In this document: piece after piece, positions 24,961 through 49,489 of the stretch
How positions within the stretch are numbered: the stretch's first letter is position 1
How the letters are laid out: every line of letters starts with the position of its first letter
NCBI RefSeq assembly: GCF_943181405.1
Contig: NZ_CALPBY010000007.1
Span: 310,001 to 374,000 of the forward strand
Direction of reading: 5' to 3'
DNA from: Cellulosimicrobium sp. Marseille-Q4280
GTDB lineage: Bacteria; Actinomycetota; Actinomycetes; Actinomycetales; Cellulomonadaceae
Length of the DNA stretch: 64,000 nt
Translations under genes and position numbers: made by a program
Notes under the pieces: model-generated
What the model was told of the DNA's origin: nothing
What the model saw: the letters and a program-made list of their open reading frames with translations, nothing else
Databases searched by the model: none

Positions 24961-25162
24961 GCGCCGACCCTACTGGGCGTCCTCGCGACCAGGATGTGGG
25001 ACGCGCGGTGGCGTGACCTCGCGAGGATCCGCGGGATTCCGCGGCTCGGACGGCCTTGTCCACAGGGGGCCTGCCGCGGGCGTCCGAGATGCCCTACTCT
25101 CTGGCGCAGTTCGATCGGTGCGCGGCAACGGTTGCCGGGCAGGGGGAGCGGGGGACGCTCGG

Positions 25163-25579
25163 ATGGCTGTCGACGCGCACGGCATCGCCGTGCTCGAGAG
25201 CGAGGTGCGCGAGCTCGTCCGACGCCGCGGTGTCGACCCGGCGCGGGACCGGGCCGCGGTCGACCGGCTCGTCCGCGACGCGATCGCCGACTACGAGACA
25301 CGCAGCACCATCGGCGCCGTCGTCCCGCTCGTCGACCCGACCGGCGCGAGCCGTGCGGTCGTCGACGCCGTCGCCGGGCTCGGACCGCTCGAGCAGTACC
25401 TCGACGACCCGGCGGTCGAGGAGATCTGGATCAACGCCCCGCACCAGGTGTTCGTCGCGCGCGGTGGCGAGTCGGAGCTCACGACGACGATCCTCACGGG
25501 CCAGCAGGCGCGCGACCTCGTCGAGCAGATGCTGCGCTCCTCCGGCAGGCGGCGCGACCTGTCAGAGCCGCAGACTTGA
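25163..25579 (+). pseudogene. tadA: Tad ATPase TadA/CpaF, N-terminal fragment
   Basis: The 138-residue frame matches the N-terminal part of a TadA/CpaF secretion ATPase: VAGLGPLEQYLDDPAVEEIW, then VFVARGGESELTTTIL and VEQMLRSSGRRRDLS. The family would continue with the RxLDLSxPFVDAxLP stretch and the Walker A motif. Here the frame runs into unrelated sequence after DLSEP (near 25572) and stops. The C-terminal part resumes at about 33432, so an island split the gene and about 100 codons, including Walker A, are missing. TadA powers Flp pilus assembly; this copy cannot. Confidence 0.88.
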
Positions 25580-25624
25580 CATATGACACCGGTCACAGTC
25601 GGTGCAAGGGGTACGTCGAGGCGT

Positions 25625-26275
25625 CTACGAATGCAGCAGCGGCGGGGTCTTCCGGCGGACGGCACCAGCACCGATCGACACGAGACCGACACCGAGCACG
25701 GCGGTCAAGAGTCCGACGAGGCTGGAGCGGGACTCGATAACTTCGGCAGTGCCGAGGGATGCGGTGCACAGACCTACGGCGAGCAGGATGGCCCATACGA
25801 ACTCGGAGCGCGTCCCGCCCTCCACCTGGTAAAGCATGGTCAGTTTCGGGGGCGAGACCTCCTCGCCGCGCCAGTACTCGGCGGCGATGCGGTACCGCTC
25901 CAGGTGCACGCGAATGCCGCGACGCAGCGTGAGCCATGAGGCGGCGACTCCCGAGAGGAAGACCCCAACGACGTCCGTCGAGTCGTAGGTCCGGATCACG
26001 ACGAACGGAACGGCAACGACCATGAGGATGGTTTCCACGTAATAGCGTGGCGGGACCATCACGCTCGCGACCATGTGAGCGGTAGCCATGGCGCGGAGTT
26101 GCTGGAGCGCCTCCGTGCGATGGTCGTTGGCCTCGCCGTCTGCAAGTTGCTTCGTCCATTCGGCCACTCGGCGCATGCGTGACCGCTGGGTAAGTTGGTC
26201 GACGGCGACGAGCAGGGCCACGATCGAGGCGACGGCCGCGACGACAGGAGCCACGACGTCTAGCACTTCGTCCAC
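25625..26275 (-). CDS. Hypothetical multi-pass membrane protein
   Basis: This 216-residue protein has about five hydrophobic segments: VVAPVVAAVASIVALLVAV at the N-terminus, one near residue 85, one near 105, one near 165 and a C-terminal LVGLLTAVLGVGLVSIGAG. The soluble loop after the first helix is basic and helical (QRSRMRRVAEWTKQLADGE). No family was recognised. It is the first gene inside the island, reading toward the tadA N-terminal fragment. Lower GC than the flanks supports transfer. A membrane-sensing or killing role is only a guess. Confidence 0.7.
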   Translation of the reverse strand: MDEVLDVVAPVVAAVASIVALLVAVDQLTQRSRMRRVAEWTKQLADGEANDHRTEALQQLRAMATAHMVASVMVPPRYYVETILMVVAVPFVVIRTYDSTDVVGVFLSGVAASWLTLRRGIRVHLERYRIAAEYWRGEEVSPPKLTMLYQVEGGTRSEFVWAILLAVGLCTASLGTAEVIESRSSLVGLLTAVLGVGLVSIGAGAVRRKTPPLLHS

Positions 26276-26617
26276 GTGTCTCCCCAGAGTTCAGCCGTGC
26301 AGCGATCGGTTCAGAACTATCCCGAAGTGTGGGTCTCTCCCTCCTCTCGGCGCGCCGCGTCGAGCGAACTCGTCGCCGAGCCGGACGACGGCGAGCCGCC
26401 GTCCTGACGTACGCCAGGAAGACCCTGCCCGTGCACCTCGAGCGAGGTCGGGACACCTCGGCCTAGGTGGCGCGAGTTGGGGGGCACATTGGGCGGCATC
26501 GAGGGAGTTCGACAGTTTGTACTGACACACATAAGTGCGTCGCGGGATGTTTCCGCCACCGCTCCCGTGTCAAGAAAGTCTCTTGGTGAGCGCCGTCGCG
26601 CCTTCTCGCCCACAACC
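26276..26617. other. Island spacer without a recognisable gene
   Basis: This 342-base stretch has short open frames in several phases, but none has a good start site or a protein-like composition. It may hold promoters for the leftward gene at 26275 or decayed sequence. No repeat or RNA gene was recognised. Confidence 0.5.
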
Positions 26618-27163
26618 TCAGAGCGCATCCATTAGATCGGTCTTCATCGTCACGACGAGCCTGTCAAAACGAATCTGAACCCTCTCGACGTCGTCGCTGA
26701 CGACGGCCCTATATCGTCGAGCGTTCGCATCAACACCGTTGAGAACATGGAGCATGTCTTGCGCAGCATCGTTCACTTCCACAGGTCCGACGAGTCGCGT
26801 CGTAGCCACGCATCGCGCGACCCGCGTGCGGAACCCCTCACCAGCCGAGTCAGCCGCCAGCCCTTCTGGCGCGGTTAGCACCGCAGCGCCGAGGCTTAGG
26901 CCCGCCCTGTGGTTCATGACGTCGATCCATTCGGACGCGGCGACCGTGAGTTGAAGGTAGGCATCTCGCCGTTCCTCAAGTAGATGCACCCGTCGTGCCG
27001 CCTCGGCCTCGCGCTCGGCGGTCTCGCGGCGCTCGGTTGCGGCATCGATGTCGCGCCGCTTCTGGGCGGCGAGATTCGAGAGGTTGCCCCACAGCGTGGC
27101 GGCGATGCCCGCGAGTCCGACAGCACCGGTGATTGCGAGCGGTAGCCATTCCCCGGGTTCCAT
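26618..27163 (-). CDS. Hypothetical membrane-anchored coiled-coil protein
   Basis: This 181-residue protein has one N-terminal membrane helix (LPLAITGAVGLAGIAATLW). A charged coiled coil follows at about residues 30-75 (AATERRETAEREAEAARRVH), then a soluble helical domain. The layout is common in actinobacterial mobile elements, but no named family was recognised. The gene sits alone between an intergenic spacer and small ORFs, on the reverse strand. Its function is unknown; a membrane-tethered structural or sensor role is suggested only by topology. Confidence 0.72.
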   Translation of the reverse strand: MEPGEWLPLAITGAVGLAGIAATLWGNLSNLAAQKRRDIDAATERRETAEREAEAARRVHLLEERRDAYLQLTVAASEWIDVMNHRAGLSLGAAVLTAPEGLAADSAGEGFRTRVARCVATTRLVGPVEVNDAAQDMLHVLNGVDANARRYRAVVSDDVERVQIRFDRLVVTMKTDLMDAL

Positions 27164-27293
27164 GCCGGGAACCTAGCGCCCCGCGCCCACGACGAGGCGG
27201 CGCCGCGCCCCACCCGAGACACGCGACGCCGCCCCTGCCTCGACGGCAGCGCTCGGCGGCCGGCTCTAGCTCCACGATGGGAAGGTCGCACTG

Positions 27294-27488
27294 ATGGCGT
27301 TTTCACTCGATGCGTGGCTGACCAAGCTCGAGCACGGTGCTGATGAGGCAGAGGCGTGGGCCAAGGACGTCGAAGCACTCATCGACGCCGGTGCACTAAG
27401 AGATCTCGTCAAGCAGCTCGTCGACCGAGGCAAGCACGAGACGAGCCCGTGCCGCCGAGCGCGACCGCAGTCGAATGCGCAGCAGTAA
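27294..27488 (+). CDS. Small hypothetical protein, 64 aa
   Basis: The ATG follows a GGAAGG site by 8 bases. The first 50 residues are helical and acidic (LEHGADEAEAWAKDVEALID), and the last 14 are basic and low-complexity. The end overlaps the 3' end of the reverse-strand HNH remnant. Around 27440 both reading frames lose protein-like character, so the C-terminus may be foreign sequence joined by recombination. Confidence 0.5.
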   Translation: MAFSLDAWLTKLEHGADEAEAWAKDVEALIDAGALRDLVKQLVDRGKHETSPCRRARPQSNAQQ

Positions 27489-27711
27489 TGTCATGAGAGG
27501 GATGCGCCGGACGCTCCCAGCCGGGGCACACCCAACCGTTCTCAGCGACCCACGCCGCGATGGCACGCTTCCGACGTTCACGCTCACGGGGGTCACGAGC
27601 TGCGCGCGACCTCCGCGACAAGGGCCGCTGCGAGTGCTCAGGGCAGTACGTCCGCCCAGTCACCCGAGCCTCACAGCCCGTCCGACCGCACCGCTTCGGA
27701 GCCCTTAGCAT
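27409..27711 (-). pseudogene. Truncated HNH endonuclease-like gene
   Basis: The frame has a phage-type HNH N-terminus: RCGRTGCEARVTGRTYCPEH, a charged linker, WVCPGW, then HDITAAHSTAVALGGTG, which matches the first half of an HNH core. The second half, with the C-x-x-C and final histidine/asparagine of the family, is missing. The frame ends in an unrelated RACLGRRAA tail. The start at 27711 is supported by GGGAGG 4 bases upstream. It would be inactive as a nuclease. Confidence 0.6.
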
Positions 27712-27745
27712 CCAGCCTCCCAACGAGCGCCGATATTGTTCCGCC

Positions 27746-28336
27746 ATGGAGCCCGTGTCCTGGTGGACCATCATCCCGATCAGCGCGATCGTCTCCGCGC
27801 TCGTCACTCTGACGATCCGCTACCTCGACAAACCCCGCCCGCACCTCGTTGTGGTACGCCGGGGACTCCTGCTGCCCACGTCAGAGACCAAGATGTTGGA
27901 TATCTACGGCAAGCCCACCACGATCCACAACTACGGGAACGGCACCGCGTACGGCGTCCGCATCGTCGGGTCCAGCTGTGTCGTCGGTGTCCGGATGCCG
28001 AAGGCTCACGCCTTCGGCGGGGATTCGTGGAACGACTACCTACCAGCGATCGAGCCCGGTGAGACGGTCGTTCTCGACGTCCACAACCTCGATGAGAACA
28101 GCACCCCGCGGATCGTAATCACCCGCGACCGGTTTCCCTCGCTGCCAGCACTCAGGGGACTGCGACGAGTGCAGGTCTTTCGTTTGGACCGGATGCTCGT
28201 CGAGAACCCGTTGCCGCCGGGGGGCTTCGAACCACGCGCCATCCCGGCATTACGTCGTCGCCTGGGGATCGTCGCGCCCTACGGGCTCACGGCGCGCGTG
28301 AACTCCAATAATCCGGGGTCATTCCTCGACGAGTAA
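27746..28336 (+). CDS. Hypothetical single-pass membrane protein
   Basis: This 196-residue protein has an N-terminal membrane helix (SWWTIIPISAIVSALVTLTI). A soluble domain follows with TTIHNYGNGTAYGVRIVG, a beta-rich stretch of the kind found in small sensor or effector domains, and IEPGETVVLDVHNLDEN. No family was named. It is divergent from the HNH remnant, with 34 bases between the starts. Its beta-rich domain after a tether resembles other membrane-tethered island proteins, but the function is unknown. Confidence 0.7.
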   Translation: MEPVSWWTIIPISAIVSALVTLTIRYLDKPRPHLVVVRRGLLLPTSETKMLDIYGKPTTIHNYGNGTAYGVRIVGSSCVVGVRMPKAHAFGGDSWNDYLPAIEPGETVVLDVHNLDENSTPRIVITRDRFPSLPALRGLRRVQVFRLDRMLVENPLPPGGFEPRAIPALRRRLGIVAPYGLTARVNSNNPGSFLDE

Positions 28337-28472
28337 TGACCAGCACCAGAAGGCCCAGACCCTGGCAGATGAAAGTTTGCAGACCCCTGCGGTACTGGGC
28401 GCCGACCGGGGAGGGGGTGGTGGCAGTGGCGGACGCCAAGAAGTGTCGGTGGTTCGTGCGACGATCCGCGAC

Positions 28473-28823
28473 ATGGAGCCTCTGTACGACCGAACTGGCG
28501 TCGTTGTAGCGTGGATCTACTCGGATCGGGTGCTGGACCTGCATGGCCAGACCCTTGGCTGGGCGAGGGGCGACTCCGTGTACTCCCGGCGTGGGTCGCA
28601 CCGTGCGTGGTTCGACCGCGGCGTGGTGTATGACCACTCGGGTCGCGCGCTCGCGTTCGCTGCAGGTGCGACGGGTGGGCCGGCCAAGCCTGGTCGGGCC
28701 GGACAGCCGGGGCGCCCGGGTGTGTCGGCGTCACCCGGTCGTCCTGGGTTCAGTGCGAAGCCTGGTCGATCCGGTCTCACGGGTTCGTGGTCGTCGCAGT
28801 CGCTGCCTGACCTGCTGGGGTAG
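28473..28823 (+). CDS. 4-fold beta-flower domain protein with collagen-like tail
   Basis: This 116-residue protein has a repeated beta-hairpin pattern at about residues 1-66. Units such as PLYDRTGVVVAWIYSD, VLDLHGQTLGWARGDSVYS and VVYDHSGRALAF match the 4-fold beta-flower fold. A tail of G-x-P repeats follows (PGRAGQPGRPG and similar), ending in GSWSSQSLPDLLG. Collagen-like tails of this kind are known in the family. The ATG at 28473 gives the usual family start; in-frame codons lie upstream. The role of the family is not established. Confidence 0.75.
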   Translation: MEPLYDRTGVVVAWIYSDRVLDLHGQTLGWARGDSVYSRRGSHRAWFDRGVVYDHSGRALAFAAGATGGPAKPGRAGQPGRPGVSASPGRPGFSAKPGRSGLTGSWSSQSLPDLLG

Positions 28824-28927
28824 CGGGGGGTGTGTGGTGGCACCGGCGACCTAGTAGGCCATCCCCCGCGAGCAACGCGCTAGCTGTACCCGGCCACAAG
28901 GTTGGTGGCAGTTCCGGTTGTCGACGG

Positions 28928-28981
28928 GAGGACCTCCGGGCTTAGTGGAGATGTCGAAGTCTTCACAACCCGGAGGTCCTC
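28928..28981 (+). promoter_or_regulatory. Hairpin that can hide the transposase ribosome-binding site
   Basis: GAGGACCTCCGGG (28928-28940) and CCCGGAGGTCCTC (28969-28981) form a perfect 13-bp stem with a 28-base loop. The right arm contains the GGAGG site that serves the GTG start at 28982. In a long transcript entering from outside the stem would form and block translation; a message starting inside the element would lack the left arm. Several IS elements use this trick, so a similar control is likely here. Confidence 0.65.
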
Positions 28982-29934
28982 GTGTCCCACGCAAATGCCC
29001 GGTTGACGGTCCGGGGCAAGATGCTGATCGTCGAGCGTCGCGGTCAGGGCTGGAAGCAGGCGCATATCGCTGCGGCGATGGGCGTCTCGCGCAAGACCGT
29101 GCGGTACTGGCTGGCCCGATCCGCTACTGAGGGCGAGCGGGCCTGCACGACCGCTCCTCACGGCCGCACCGTTGCCCGACCAGGACGCCGCCGCAGGTCG
29201 AGGCCAGGGTCGTCGCCCTGCGACGGGCCGAGCGGCGCGGGCGCGACCAGATCGCCGCTGAGCTCGCCATGCCGGCCTGGACCGTCTCGCGGATCCTGGC
29301 CCGCCACCACATGCCGCACCTGGCCGTGCTGGACCCGATGACCGGTGAACGTCTGAGGGCCTCCAAGACGACCGCGGTCCGCTACGAACGCGACCGGCCC
29401 GGCGAACTGGTCCACATGGACGTCAAGAAGCTCGGGCGCATCCCCGACGGCGGCGGCTGGCGCGCCCACGGCCGCGGCCCCGGCGACAACCGCGACCGCA
29501 AGCACGGCACCGGCTACGACTACGTCCACTCGCTCGTCGACGACCACTCCCGCCTGGCGTACTCCGAGATCCTGCCCGACGAGAAGGGCACCACCTGCGC
29601 CGCCTTCCCGACCCGCGCGATCGCCTACTTCGCCACGCACGGCATCACCACGATCGAGCGCCTCATGACCGACAACGCCTGGGCCTACCGCTGGTCACTG
29701 CGGGACCTGTGCGCTGCTCACGGCATCCGGCAGAAGTTCATCAAGCCCCACTGCCCCTGGCAGAACGGGAAGGTAGAACCCCTCAACCGAACCCTCACAA
29801 CCGAATGGGCCTACCGCCAGATCTTCATCAGCAATGCCGAGCGCGCCGCCGCACTGGCACCCTGGATCGAGTACTACAACACCCGACGCCGCCACCACGC
29901 ACTCGGCGGCCTGCCACCGACCAGCCGGCTGTAA
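28982..29934 (+). pseudogene. IS481 family transposase, frameshifted
   Basis: The N-terminal part (28982 to about 29140) has the helix-turn-helix of IS481 transposases: WKQAHIAAAMGVSRKTVRYW. The rest (about 29130-29934, a different frame) has the DDE core: VHMDVKKLGRIPDGGGWRAH, LVDDHSRLAYSEIL, MTDNAWAY, then KPHCPWQNGKVEPLNRTLTT. The frame changes near GAGGGCGAGCGGG, where one G seems to be missing. An in-frame TGA lies just upstream of the downstream frame. The GTG start has GGAGG 5 bases upstream. No programmed frameshift is known for this family, so the gene is probably dead. Confidence 0.85.
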
Positions 29935-29961
29935 CCAACCTCCTGGCCGGGTATAGCTAGC

Positions 29962-30111
29962 GCGGTAATTCAGTGGGGGACTGCTGGCGAGTGGGTCGGC
30001 GGCGTGGGCGCAATCATCGCGGCCGGCGTGCCGCTTGTGCTCTACCTGATCGAGCGACGGGAGCGCATCGCAGGCGTACCTGATCTGACTCTCGACGACG
30101 TCGACGACTGA
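29962..30111 (+). other. Possible remnant of a small membrane protein, start cut by the IS
   Basis: After the IS right end the frame reads through to TGA at 30109-30111. It encodes GGVGAIIAAGVPLVLYLIER, a good membrane helix with a basic end, like small phage membrane proteins. No ATG lies in frame after the IS. The upstream half is blocked by stops before the IS, so the original start may be lost. The remnant is uncertain. Confidence 0.35.
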
Positions 30112-30237
30112 ACTGGCGCGGGACGGATCGTCGCAGTCTCTTGCATTCCGAGCCCGTCGCGAGCGCGCACCCCGGGTGCCCCCCACCCCACCCCCACGGC
30201 GACCGCCGGTGCAGAGCGCCTGTCTCTCTCCGTGAAT

Positions 30238-30269
30238 CGAAAAACCCCCGGCAGGTCGCCGAGGCCGGG
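30238..30269 (-). terminator. Hairpin with T-run on the reverse strand
   Basis: CCCGGC (30247-30252) and GCCGGG (30264-30269) form a 6-bp stem with an 11-base loop. On the reverse strand the stem is followed by GGTTTTT, a typical Rho-independent layout. It would stop transcription coming from the right toward the IS, but no close reverse-strand gene ends here. Confidence 0.45.
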
Positions 30270-30306
30270 CGCGATACGCGGCCAGCGAGGTCTATAGGAT
30301 CGTTTG

Positions 30307-30723
30307 GTGGCCGACTGGACTACGCCTAAGGCACTCGCGGGGGATCTCGGGGTAACGGCGTCGGCCGTGCGCCGCTGGCTGCGCGACAACGTCGTCCGCG
30401 TCGAGTCGGGCCCCTGGGTGATCGACGACGACGTCGCTTCCCGAGTTCGAGCCCGCTTCGAGGCAACACGGCCGGCGCGTGAGCGCGGCCGGGGAGAGTG
30501 CGCGACCGACGACTGCGACCGGACGGCCGTCGGACGCGGTTGGTGCCGCATGCACTACAACCGGTGGTATCGAACCGGGCGAGTCGACGGCGTCGTCTCG
30601 GGCGCACACCAACTCGCGAAGACGCACTGTCCGCACGGGCACGAGTACACGCCCGAGAACACCATCGTCTACCCCTCGGATGGACGGCGACGGTGTCGGA
30701 CATGCCGGAGCTCTACGGGGTAG
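30307..30723 (+). CDS. Phage-type HTH/zinc-ribbon protein, HNH-like
   Basis: This 138-residue protein has an N-terminal HTH-like segment (PKALAGDLGVTASAVRRWLR). Two Cys-rich units follow: CATDDCDRTAVGRGWCRMHY and CPHGHEYTPENTIVYPSDGR with a final C-x-x-C. The units resemble those at the ends of actinophage HNH nucleases and zinc-ribbon regulators, but the HNH core itself is not seen. The GTG at 30307 follows an AGGA by about 8 bases. It may be a DNA-binding part of an older element. Confidence 0.6.
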   Translation: MADWTTPKALAGDLGVTASAVRRWLRDNVVRVESGPWVIDDDVASRVRARFEATRPARERGRGECATDDCDRTAVGRGWCRMHYNRWYRTGRVDGVVSGAHQLAKTHCPHGHEYTPENTIVYPSDGRRRCRTCRSSTG

Positions 30724-30806
30724 CAGAAGTGGGCGGCTCAACCCCACTATGAGCCCGTCGGCTACCCTGTCCTTGGCATCTGGTCGACCGTTAACGAGGG
30801 GGTTCG

Positions 30807-31466
30807 GTGGGTACGTGGCGTGGGCCCGCCGATAGGTGGCCGGAGCACAGCAAGCAGTGGTTCCAGGACGCTCTGGCCGAGGCGCGTAGTGCCGGCTGGC
30901 ACTTTCTCGACTTTTCGTCGCATTCGTTCGGTTTGGTCGCCTGTCGGGTCGACCTTGAGGACCGATGTGAGTTCCCAATCTTCAGTACAGGTCGAGCCGG
31001 CGAGGATGCCGCCCAGACCCTGCAGAAGATGGTGCGGCGCTGCCCTCATCGCGCACCGGAGGCGAAGCCCTTCGGAGCCGCAGCCCACCTCGGCAGAGCG
31101 GAAGACTCTCTCAAGAAGGGGCAGCGGCTCGCGAGCGCGGCCGAGGTTTGTCTCGCCGCGCAAGACGCAAGCAACCACGCGCAGGAGCTTCTCGAGCAGG
31201 CCATGGAGGTCGTTGAGCATGCGCAGCGGAACTTCGACGAGGCTCTGGAAGAGGAACGGGCCGCCTCTGAGCTCCTGAAGACGGTCGACCCCGATCTGGC
31301 TGCCATGCCTACCGTCGCCGTCGTTGAAGGTGCCGCAGAGCATCACCGTGATGCCACTCGCTCGTTACGTCGTGTCACCAAGGAGAGCCCGCGCAAGCGC
31401 GCGGTCGGGAAGGCGCTCGGAGAGCTCCGAGCCCAAATTGAGGCCCTCCAGAGAGCCGACCTGTAG
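30807..31466 (+). CDS. HicA-like fold plus coiled coil, candidate toxin of a TAC-like set
   Basis: This 219-residue protein has an N-terminal domain of about 80 residues. Its pattern WFQDALAEARSAGWHFLDF, then SSHSFGLVACR with a central histidine, then CEFPIFSTGRAGEDAAQTLQ, resembles the small double-stranded-RNA-binding-like fold of HicA toxins. A long helical coiled-coil region follows (about 95-215). Start GTG at 30807 has GAGGGGG 7 bases upstream. The HTH gene starts 85 bases downstream and a SecB-like gene follows. A HicA-type RNA cleavage activity is a hypothesis; it rests on residue pattern only. Confidence 0.55.
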   Translation: MGTWRGPADRWPEHSKQWFQDALAEARSAGWHFLDFSSHSFGLVACRVDLEDRCEFPIFSTGRAGEDAAQTLQKMVRRCPHRAPEAKPFGAAAHLGRAEDSLKKGQRLASAAEVCLAAQDASNHAQELLEQAMEVVEHAQRNFDEALEEERAASELLKTVDPDLAAMPTVAVVEGAAEHHRDATRSLRRVTKESPRKRAVGKALGELRAQIEALQRADL

Positions 31467-31493
31467 CGCGGAACGCCGCCCCTACCAGTAGGG

Positions 31494-31523
31494 TTGGCAG
31501 ATGGCAACACTAGGCTGTACGAT
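31494..31523 (+). promoter_or_regulatory. Promoter of the HTH-SecB pair
   Basis: TTGGCA (31494-31499) and TACGAT (31518-31523) are spaced 18 bases apart, close to a sigma-70-type consensus. Transcription would begin near 31530, 20-25 bases before the GTG at 31552. A separate promoter here suggests that the HTH and chaperone genes are expressed without the upstream coiled-coil gene, as antitoxin operons often are. Confidence 0.5.
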
Positions 31524-31551
31524 CCTCGGACGCCACCCCCAAGGAGTGCCA

Positions 31552-32268
31552 GTGCGTACAAAGTTCAGCGTGGTAGTCGACGGCATCAAACTCTCTGACG
31601 TCCCAACGCTGATGGTCATGCAGGATCAGCTCGATGATCTCGTTTGGTCGTCGATCAATGGCCGTGTCACGTTTTCTTCCAGCGTTGCAGAGGGCGTGGA
31701 CGTCGTATGTGCCGCCTCAGAGGCTGCGCGCCGGGTTCTCTATGCGCTTCCCGGCTCGAACATCGTTGGGGCCGAGCGCGATATCGTGTCCGCGGCGGAC
31801 GTCGCCGAACGCATCGGGGTGTCGCGCGAAACGGTCCGCACCTGGGCGCGAGGAATGCGTGGACCAGGAGGCTTTCCTATGCCTGTTGGAACGGTCGGAG
31901 GCGGGGCCCGTGGCGGTACTGATATTTGGTACTGGTGCGAGGTTCAGGCGTGGCTTGAGGCGAAGCGCGGCTTTGTGTTCGATGAGCGGTCGCCAAGCGT
32001 CGTAGAAATGGCCGCAATGGATGGTCATTTCAAGCATGCGCCGACTGTGCTCGATCATCAGTTCCGGAGCGCGCAAAGCGCCTGGACTTCGCAAGCAGAG
32101 GCCACGACCTTCAAGCAAAAGTCTACGGTACTGCGCAACGGCTCTCCCGAGGGCTGGGCGACCGTCTCGCCCTTGATCGCGAGAAGGTCAGGGTCTGTGC
32201 CCGGCACCAGGGGGTTGAAGGTTGACGTGTCCGTGGTCTACATGCACCAGCGGATGAAAGCGCAATGA
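31552..32268 (+). CDS. HTH DNA-binding protein, candidate antitoxin
   Basis: This 238-residue protein has a helix-turn-helix at about residues 80-101 (AADVAERIGVSRETVRTWAR), with a following GGTDIWYWCEVQAWLE wing. An unrecognised N-terminal domain precedes it and a C-terminal extension of about 100 residues follows. AAGGAG lies 5 bases before the GTG at 31552, which is preferred over an ATG at 31501 that has no ribosome site. The stop overlaps the SecB-like start (ATGA), so they are translationally coupled. In TAC systems the antitoxin has a C-terminal chaperone-dependence tail; the extension here could serve that role. Confidence 0.72.
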   Translation: MRTKFSVVVDGIKLSDVPTLMVMQDQLDDLVWSSINGRVTFSSSVAEGVDVVCAASEAARRVLYALPGSNIVGAERDIVSAADVAERIGVSRETVRTWARGMRGPGGFPMPVGTVGGGARGGTDIWYWCEVQAWLEAKRGFVFDERSPSVVEMAAMDGHFKHAPTVLDHQFRSAQSAWTSQAEATTFKQKSTVLRNGSPEGWATVSPLIARRSGSVPGTRGLKVDVSVVYMHQRMKAQ

Positions 32269-32735
32269 GCGAGCGAACTGACGAAAGCGTCTTGGATGGC
32301 ATGTCGCGGCTTGTCGAGGAGAGTATTCTCCGCAACATTCGGCCCGTCGCGATTTCAGCTGAGCTCCCGTTCAACGCCCCCTTCCCTTATGGCGATATCC
32401 GCTATGAGGCGGTCGATCCCGAGTACCGTGTAGAGGGTGGTGAACTTCAGTACCGCCTGGGATTCGGGGTATCTCTAGTCGATGAGGACGAGGATGTAGT
32501 CGCCGAGTTGGCGTGCACATTCCTTGTGGCCTTTGAACTCAAAGATGCAAGCGTTGCTGAAGACCGGGAGGCGGTTTTCGCGTTTGCAGAGACCAATGTT
32601 CTTTTCATTGTTTGGCCATATGTGCGAGAGATCTTTTCATCTCTAGCTATTCGGCTTGAACTGGATAAGCTTGTGCTCGGCGTTCTTCGTCGCGGGACAA
32701 ACGCCCCTGATGGTGTGACTCGTGTTATCAAGTGA
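32265..32735 (+). CDS. SecB-like chaperone protein
   Basis: This 156-residue protein matches the SecB fold. Its core reads ELQYRLGFGVSLVDEDEDVV and CTFLVAFELKD, and a C-terminal helix-containing stretch NVLFIVWPYVREIFSSLAIR aligns with the SecB region that has F-P-Y-A-R-E. Classical SecB is absent in actinobacteria except in toxin-antitoxin-chaperone loci, where it protects an unstable antitoxin. The gene has the lowest GC of the window and overlaps the HTH gene by 4 bases. These facts support a horizontally acquired TAC-type chaperone. Confidence 0.85.
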   Translation: MSERTDESVLDGMSRLVEESILRNIRPVAISAELPFNAPFPYGDIRYEAVDPEYRVEGGELQYRLGFGVSLVDEDEDVVAELACTFLVAFELKDASVAEDREAVFAFAETNVLFIVWPYVREIFSSLAIRLELDKLVLGVLRRGTNAPDGVTRVIK

Positions 32736-33053
32736 TGCAACTGCACGGGACGCCCGCATCCGGACCCACAAGGACTGAGTGTGGCTCGGAGGTGACCGCG
32801 AGGGGGGACGTGGTGGGGGGAGCGAACTAGGAGCCAGCCGCCGGTATTGGGCGCGAGCTTCGCTTGAACCGTCGCGAACCGTGCACTGCTCAGCGTCGGG
32901 TGCCCGTGTCGTTCACGGGACGAACTGTCTGCCGGACCCCATCGGTTAGCGGCTGAGGGGCAGGAGCGCCGTAGTGTGTAGGTCGGCCGCGTCGGGCGTC
33001 CTGCCCTGTTCACGGACCCGCTAAAGGGGCCGTGAGCGAGCCGGGACGACCGA
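32736..33053. other. Noncoding stretch after the SecB-like gene
   Basis: These 318 bases have no credible open frame on either strand. They are higher in GC than the preceding genes. I saw only weak inverted repeats. They could hold the downstream end of the SecB-like transcript and regulatory sites. Confidence 0.55.
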
Positions 33054-33284
33054 TCAGCGGCAGTAGGTTCCTGCACTGTCGCCGACCGCGTGCGCGACCA
33101 GGTACACGTCGGACGCCCTGAGCGAGCCGATGCGGTGCAGGCGCGCCCATAGGGCCAGCGACGAACGGTCCGTGCCTCGGGTCGCGTCGCGGGTGCTCAA
33201 GCCGGCAGCCGCCAGCCGCCTGCGAGCGACCTTGGCCGTGTCACGGACGGACTTGCGCATGGTGGCGTTGCTGATGGTGCTCAT
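33054..33284 (-). CDS. Small hypothetical protein, 76 aa
   Basis: The ATG at 33284 follows GAGAGGAA by about 6 bases, a strong ribosome site. The product is basic: RKSVRDTAKVARRRLAAAGL in the first half and SDVYLVAHAVGDSAGTYCR at the end. No family was recognised. It is the last gene of the island, read toward the SecB-like gene. An antisense frame across it lacks a ribosome site. Confidence 0.65.
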   Translation of the reverse strand: MSTISNATMRKSVRDTAKVARRRLAAAGLSTRDATRGTDRSSLALWARLHRIGSLRASDVYLVAHAVGDSAGTYCR

Positions 33285-33378
33285 GATGCTGTTCCTCTCG
33301 TTCGTGCCGCCGTCGTTGGCGGTCTTCTCAGGCTCCTGCGGCCGGGTGGTCGCGGGACCTCCAACTAGGTGACGGCCT

Positions 33379-33410
33379 GGCCCGTTCGGTGTTCCAGCAC
33401 CGGGCGGGCC
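33379..33410 (+). terminator. Hairpin at the right edge of the island
   Basis: GGCCCG-tt-CGGTG and CACCG-gg-CGGGCC form an 11-bp stem with a small internal mismatch and a 6-base loop, followed by TCTTGTGTG. It lies about 20 bases before the point where tadA coding resumes, and would stop rightward transcripts from the island. Confidence 0.6.
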
Positions 33411-33431
33411 TCTTGTGTGTCTACCAGCGTG

Positions 33432-34018
33432 GCGCTTGCTGCGGTTCGCCGTACGCGACCTGGTGTCGATGCAGTGCTGCCAGCCGAGCCTCGAGGCGAC
33501 GGGCAAGATCCCGCTTCGTCGCCTCGTGAAGGAGGCGCTGCGCATGCAGCTCGACCGCATCGTCATCGGCGAGGTCCGGGAGGCGGAGAGCTTCGACCTG
33601 CTGATCGCCCTCAACGCTGGAGTTCCGGGCGCGTGCACGATCCACGCGAACTCGGCGCGCGAGGCGCTCGCGAAGATGTGCACGCTGCCGCTGCTCGCGG
33701 GGGAGAACGTGTCCGACAGGTTCGTCGTGCCGACGGTCGCGTCAGCGATCGACGTGGTCGTCCACCTCGGTGTCGACGTGGACGGGCGCCGGCGGGTCCG
33801 CGAGATCCTCGGTGTCCCGGGCCGGGTCGAGGAGGGCGTCGTCGAGACGTCCGAGCTCTTCGTGCGCTCCGGCGACCGGCTCGTGCGGGCGGACGGGTAC
33901 CCGCCCGTCGCGGACAGGTTCGCCCGGGCGGGGATCGACCTCGGAGCGGTGTTGCGCCATGCCCGGCCCGAGGAGCCGGGCACCCTGCCCGACGTCGCGT
34001 GGTCGGGGGGGTCGCTGA
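33432..34018 (+). pseudogene. tadA: Tad ATPase TadA, C-terminal fragment
   Basis: Coding resumes with LRFAVRDLVSMQCCQPSLEA and has the TadA signatures LRRLVKEALRMQLDRIVIGE and NAGVPGACTIHANSAREALA, so the Walker B and HIS-box part is here. Walker A and about 100 preceding codons are missing, and no start codon is credible. Unusual residues (CC, ATGK) fit relaxed selection. A run of seven G at 34005-34011 shifts the frame so that the natural stop (TGA 34016-34018) is missed and the frame reads into tadB. Confidence 0.85.
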
Positions 34019-49382: not shown

Positions 49383-49489
49383 CCGGAGGACCTGAGCCCC
49401 GGAAGGCGGCCGGCTCGTCCGCCTCCGGATCGCGACGTGTCGCCCGCGTTGCCGCTCGACAACGGTTCGGTCACGGAGCCTCGAGCGGG

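Follow-up and report, generated by a model that had tools for sequence, protein, structure and literature searches.

The chaperone of the toxin-antitoxin-chaperone (TAC) systems described in the available parts of PMC5105189 and PMC11618068 works via the antitoxin. The locus considered here comprises three consecutive genes, designated T, A and C, which are read in the same direction on the + strand of a 64-kb stretch of DNA (the window, whose ORF listing gives the gene order). It raises the question of whether they form such a system and, if so, whether chaperone control may extend to a toxin that carries a helical domain of its own. From sequence comparison, the three genes are read, with a probability of about 0.75, as a TAC module in which T would be RNase-like, C would guard the tail of A and an operator would lie between T and A. 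The features concerned are as follows.

25564–33437, unstranded: island that sits within a Tad-type ATPase gene and carries the module; three same-genus loci are homologous up to 25563 and again from 33438.
30807–31466, + strand: T, candidate toxin of 219 aa with a GTG start; PDC-M06A match over residues 13–83 (E=8e-9) and relatives with identical gene order.
30837–31049, + strand: HicA-like N-terminal domain of T (about residues 11–81) with the invariant His39; structure model and alignment of 16 N-domains.
31077–31457, + strand: predicted three-helix C-terminal domain of T (residues 91–217); structure model, weak three-helix-bundle matches and heptad periodicity.
31493–31508, unstranded: candidate operator GTTGGCAGATGGCAAC, a GTTG-N8-CAAC palindrome.
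31494–31523, + strand: promoter-like site before A and C (TTGGCA-18-TACGAT).
31552–32268, + strand: A, candidate antitoxin of 238 aa from GTG 31552; PDC-M06B match (E=1e-12), modelled ferredoxin-like N-domain and winged HTH.
31957–32265, + strand: 103-residue tail of A that follows the winged-HTH motif, a candidate region of chaperone addiction; longer than in 17 SecB-less relatives, pLDDT <50 from residue 163.
32265–32735, + strand: C, SecB-like chaperone of 156 aa; matches to Rv1957 and PD-T4-9_C.

The layout agrees with the initial annotation, which had described three low-GC genes in a row, 85 bases between toxin and antitoxin, a promoter ahead of the HTH gene and a SecB-like gene overlapping the latter by 4 bases. 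The GC content is 65.5% in T, 61.1% in A and 53.7% in C, against 73.3% in the window outside the island, and A and C share the four bases ATGA (32265–32268). The middle ORF in its longest form covers 31501–32268 on the + strand, starting at an ATG (31501) that falls within the promoter-like site. The most plausible start of A is GTG 31552, which is preceded by AAGGAG (31541–31546) and leaves a T–A gap of 85 bases. The promoter-like site is the sole one in 30500–33200, where 50 shuffles gave a mean of 0.4.

That C is SecB-like, as first proposed, and that its product contains the residues WPYVRE is confirmed. C matches Rv1957, a TAC chaperone, with E=3e-4 as a single sequence and E=2e-14 as a four-row profile, and the PADLOC model PD-T4-9_C with E=1e-5; PD-T4-9 is a system that we take to be CmdTAC. 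Neither T, A nor C matched Pfam above cut-off, and the SecB family PF02556 was matched by one of four chaperone sequences (E=0.019), the C of the window not being that one. The nearest other SecB matches adjoin Gp49-like and HTH genes (HigBA-like) in four of six loci, and C is therefore placed in a TAC lineage. Those four, L012, L013, L014 and L016 (reverse strand), lie in other actinobacterial genomes with the SecB-like gene after the Gp49-like (HigB-type) and HTH genes; they are likely HigBA-type TAC loci, with the matches of L012 lying under the Pfam cut-offs.

T and A together correspond to PDC-M06, a candidate defence pair of PADLOC: the N-domain of T is PDC-M06A and A is PDC-M06B, adjacent and in the same gene order. 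The profiles, of 84–94 positions for PDC-M06A and 174 for PDC-M06B, span no more of T than its N-domain and no more of A than its core, so that both extensions, as well as C, are extra here. PDC-M06A is matched by all 16 N-domains aligned (T and its relatives), and PDC-M06B by four of four antitoxins from three-gene loci. A search of the open-access literature found no paper using the term PDC-M06.

The model of A, built from two sequences (pLDDT 62.7, pTM 0.55), has a ferredoxin-like N-domain of beta-alpha-beta-beta-alpha-beta order with a local pLDDT of about 72–85, followed by a MerR/excisionase-like winged HTH and a helix at residues 150–184. The HTH protein with a long C-terminal extension that had been noticed at the outset is thus recovered in the model, with a 103-residue tail. 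With Foldseek, A had weak fold matches, none of them at E of 0.001 or below. The partial RNase H fold is the hallmark of HicB antitoxins; the modelled ferredoxin-like N-domain is different, and A has no Pfam HicB match; a HicB-like or HigA-like identity of A was accordingly rejected on the Pfam, PADLOC and model results. In the antitoxins of the HigA, MqsA and HicB families found in TAC systems, variable C-terminal extensions impose a need for a SecB-like chaperone, and this need is transferable (PMC5105189, in the sections available). Among the antitoxins compared here, identity is 13–21% in the tail against 27–42% in the core, as expected for variable addiction regions of that description.

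The nature of T is a harder matter. HicA has a double-stranded-RNA-binding fold and cleaves RNA in a His-dependent manner, and the initial annotation had seen a HicA-like N-terminus fused to a coiled coil. The model of T, built from two sequences (pLDDT 74.8, pTM 0.50), shows in its N-terminal part a helix (17–28), strands at 32–35, 41–45 and 55–59, and a helix (63–77), that is, an alpha-beta-beta-beta-alpha order. His39 is the sole invariant column across the 16 N-domains and is presumably the catalytic residue, by carry-over of its role from HicA; an RNase activity of T is suggested by this His and the modelled fold. A comparison of the predicted first 80 residues with HicA had been put forward beforehand, a missing HicA-like fold being named as counter-evidence, and the order of elements is that of the HicA fold as given in the available text of PMC10865869. 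Pfam HicA (PF07927), however, is matched neither by T nor by any of the 16 N-domains or 39 relatives.

It was therefore considered whether T could have another small alpha-beta domain, perhaps zinc-binding, and a non-HicA route. Alongside the negative Pfam result, no HicA occurs among the best 50 of 367 Foldseek matches, a ranking dominated by the helical part, and hhalign of the T N-domains against a HicA profile (28 HicA domains from the same phylum) gives a probability of 26%, with 7% for the four long toxins alone and 33% for the eleven short ones. A Cys at the C46 position, not seen in the HicA sequences compared, is present in 14 of 16 rows. Yet the hhalign score of 21.9, over 20 columns, exceeds the best of 100 column-shuffled controls (13.4) as well as the reversed profile (10.1); the aligned stretch is helix-GW-strand-(S/G)H and contains the invariant His. 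Together with the modelled element order, this makes the non-HicA reading unlikely, if by no means far-fetched. The HicA-like pattern of T is taken as real but distant, the resemblance being short and weak, and T is called HicA-like rather than HicA on account of the Pfam result (0/16) and of the Foldseek matches. A HigB-like identity of T was considered and rejected on the Pfam and PADLOC results. The N-domain profile matched PDB sequences at E of 0.27 or worse throughout, with no toxin among them, and a search of a viral structure library was uninformative for T. Residues Cys46, Cys54, Cys79 and His81 (within residues 46–81, 30942–31049) form a possible metal site.

The rest of T, an extension of about 135 residues, is modelled as helices 91–117, 122–158 and 170–217. 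Its Foldseek matches, among the best 50 of 367, are single-chain three-helix bundles at weak E-values of at least 0.16. Heptad periodicity occurs in the extension of four of five long toxins, that of the window included, and is missing in L036. As to the coiled coil of the initial annotation, the model shows three helices in place of a single long coil.

The T–A–C order recurs in four further loci, one of them on a conjugative plasmid, which gives five triples with the window; the latter was given, L002 was reached via C, and L004, L018 and L036 via T. With C, a search of 59 genomes (own included) found one other, G045 (contig PDSI01000159, a Micrococcales MAG), with the same three genes. With T, seven of 394 class genomes were matched, with the full set in the own genome and in G152; 396 order genomes added G023 to G000 and G045; six of 150 family genomes were matched, with a long toxin in two (G000 and G023); and 12 of 396 phylum genomes, with a long toxin in the own genome only. 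Such few long-toxin matches indicate that the three-gene set is rare. A tblastn search with T against plasmids led to plasmid pA of Pseudarthrobacter defluvii, which has all three genes; A and C matched this plasmid only, and T matched two more records, both short toxins. The three plasmid relatives are annotated 'hypothetical protein'. Viral contigs, scanned with C by itself and with two-row alignments of all three proteins, yielded pattern matches but no relative, A and T matched nothing in phage records, and a scan of genome contigs gave no locus beyond the known G045. In L018, annotated A and C are separated by a 16-base gap rather than overlapping.

In the remaining loci, most of them pairs, the toxin is short, its frame stopping shortly past the N-domain. 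A SecB-like gene is present in five of five long-toxin loci versus none of 16 short-toxin loci (21 loci; Fisher 4.9e-5, ignoring kinship), as counted with a profile that contains the five positives and covered 0.65–5.3 kb beyond A per locus. Two matches with E of about 5e-4 were excluded from this count, L032 with two stops inside the match and L033 with no antitoxin found; L026 and L081 (one stop inside the toxin match) were counted as found, and in L019 and L023 the antitoxin was not detected by profile. Five further short-toxin loci also have no SecB-like gene, giving 0/21 for short toxins in total. Antitoxin tails after the winged-HTH motif measure 74–103 residues in the five triples versus 36–72 in 17 relatives without SecB, L005 included. 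The two extensions pointed out earlier, that of T and that of A, thus each accompany SecB in the relatives, and the genome survey that had been proposed for homologues of the three genes found them together in all long-toxin loci. However, the co-occurrence is not made of independent cases, because in the tree of antitoxin cores the five triples and L005 form one clade (100/99), over which the long/SecB label needs two changes. In L005, SecB is missing, the tail is the shortest observed, and the toxin is short, with a frame that seems disrupted towards the end. These comparisons suggest that helical domain, antitoxin tail and chaperone come and go together across the loci examined.

An ordinary toxin-antitoxin pair, with C co-transcribed with A without controlling it, would be a simpler account. 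Two-gene relatives without C outnumber the triples in the samples, and A and C share a promoter-like site, so that their co-transcription could have other reasons. Such a pair does not readily explain why C goes with a long T and a long A tail in all five triples in spite of a T identity of 25–35% to the window protein, nor why the chaperones nearest to C are those of TAC systems, and it is considered quite improbable. The claim that the three genes form a TAC system is supported by family matches of all three and by the order in five loci, and comparison supports well the reading of the locus as a conserved PDC-M06-type TAC module whose HicA-like toxin is extended and in which A and C have a putative operator of their own.

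This operator is proposed from the palindrome at 31493–31508, which covers the -35-like hexamer of the promoter-like site. GTTG-N8-CAAC has two matches in the window, this one and another at 49448. All five triples and L005 carry it in the T–A gap, and none of these six has it in the 150 bp preceding T. The T–A gaps of the five triples measure 62 to 103 bases by the chosen starts; all contain GTTGG-N6-CCAAC with at most one mismatch, which per-gap shuffles reach in 0.2–0.3%. Among 14 two-gene loci, of which L007 and L008 are near copies, the site is upstream of T in eight, at the T–A junction in none and missing in six; in three of the five further short-toxin loci it precedes the conserved toxin start, within the longest ORF. 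The other 86,283 bp examined in these loci contain it a single time. Given a partial likeness to TTGACA, the left half of the motif could belong to a promoter, which leaves the right half unaccounted for. Of the three proteins, A alone has a DNA-binding domain, and it is inferred to bind GTTG-N8-CAAC. The palindrome in all five gaps and its overlap with the promoter-like site suggest that A and C own a regulated operator-promoter, with T outside that unit. In L024, L026 and L029, two sites upstream of T are 21 bases apart, that is, two helical turns.

Several known systems help to place the module. Rv1955-Rv1956-Rv1957 of Mycobacterium tuberculosis (HigB1-HigA1-SecB-TA; PMC5105189) shares the gene order, a tailed antitoxin and a homologous chaperone, but its toxin and antitoxin belong to families other than those of T and A, and the available text mentions no helical domain of the toxin. 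Mmet-TAC of Methylomonas methanica (same source, in part) likewise combines a HicA-type toxin, a tailed antitoxin and a SecB-like chaperone, but it is of the HicAB family, from which the present set stands apart by description, T having no Pfam HicA match and A no HicB-like fold. With CmdTAC, the match of C to PD-T4-9_C is shared, as are the TAC logic and, from the parts of PMC11618068 at hand, phage sensing; CmdT, however, is an mRNA ADP-ribosyltransferase, and T and A here match PDC-M06 and unrelated models and no other PD-T4-9 model. According to the same parts, a capsid protein draws off CmdC, ClpP then degrades CmdA and CmdT is freed; a HigBAC set is triggered by the lambda major tail protein (PMC11980606, in part). 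As to the helical domain, the Class 6 HicA 'Shared Domain' proteins of PMC10865869, mostly from Actinomycetes, also join a HicA domain to a C-terminal three-helix domain. That domain has 55–60 aa, with the antitoxin gene first and of Phd/YefM type, in the portions available, whereas here the extension has about 135 aa, the toxin gene comes first, the antitoxin is a winged HTH protein and a SecB is present. The words SecB and chaperone are absent from the main text of this survey of HicA contexts. As far as the open-access literature searched goes, the helical domain of T, the placing of the candidate operator between T and A and the conserved palindrome are new here.

By analogy with Rv1955-1957 and CmdTAC, T would be a HicA-like RNase toxin extended by a domain modelled as three helices; A would bind and neutralise this toxin, the winged HTH of A binding the GTTG-N8-CAAC operator. 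C would cover the tail of A as the chaperone-addiction region. Once unfolded or phage proteins titrate C away, A would be degraded and T freed, leading to translation arrest. With the operator-promoter placed after T and before A, a loss of A would induce A and C without an increase in T; the circuit could thus reset by resynthesis of A and C, a function proposed for a site that is itself observed.

The role of the helical domain remains the most tentative part. Its presence or absence along with C and a long A tail suggests that it probably takes part in controlling T via the chaperone, by contacting A or C, selecting the target or sensing the trigger. This leads to the possibility, held with less than even confidence, that the toxin itself is under chaperone control: its three-helix domain, the antitoxin tail and C would form one chaperone-gated unit, T would stay outside the autoregulated unit, and its release would lead to resynthesis of A and C only. 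A TAC that works, with a helical domain that is neutral to the chaperone, stems from a single ancestor and serves oligomerisation or binding of ribosome, RNA or membrane, is a serious contender, albeit also a doubtful one. The five triples and L005 being one clade (100/99) with two changes, common descent alone could yield the pairing. However, a clade old enough for 25–35% identity has kept all three features, and L005 is without all three at once, with the reservation on its toxin frame given above. With a toxin domain that goes with the chaperone and a shared operator at a different position, the clade offers natural long and short versions for testing how a toxin-antitoxin pair gains chaperone dependence and how the circuit resets. 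The TAC reading would also link PDC-M06, an uncharacterised PADLOC candidate, to the TAC logic of phage sensing.

The module is probably mobile, given the island, the plasmid copy and a phage-integrase-like gene adjoining the G023 copy. At the island site, 306 bp of the Tad-type ATPase target are missing. The N-terminal ATPase part is matched in 17 of 17 genus genomes (own included), and the ATPase open frame has at least 421 aa in 15 of 16 other genomes, 192 in G011 and 207 in the window. The split (CpaF/TadA) gene occupies 24962–25563 and 33438–34000 around the 7.9-kb island, and its C-terminal part continues in frame into the tad gene that follows, one ORF matching both T2SSE and T2SSF. Near the plasmid copy (L018, NZ_CP066363.1 29545–42147) are a recombinase gene, at 0.9 kb, and a type II restriction endonuclease gene, at about 4 kb. 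Within the island, an IS481-like element (28876–29964) has 36-base inverted ends that are 86% complementary and a transposase in two overlapping frames, and a small ORF directly upstream of T (30304–30723) begins in an HTH-like manner and matches phage HNH endonuclease families.
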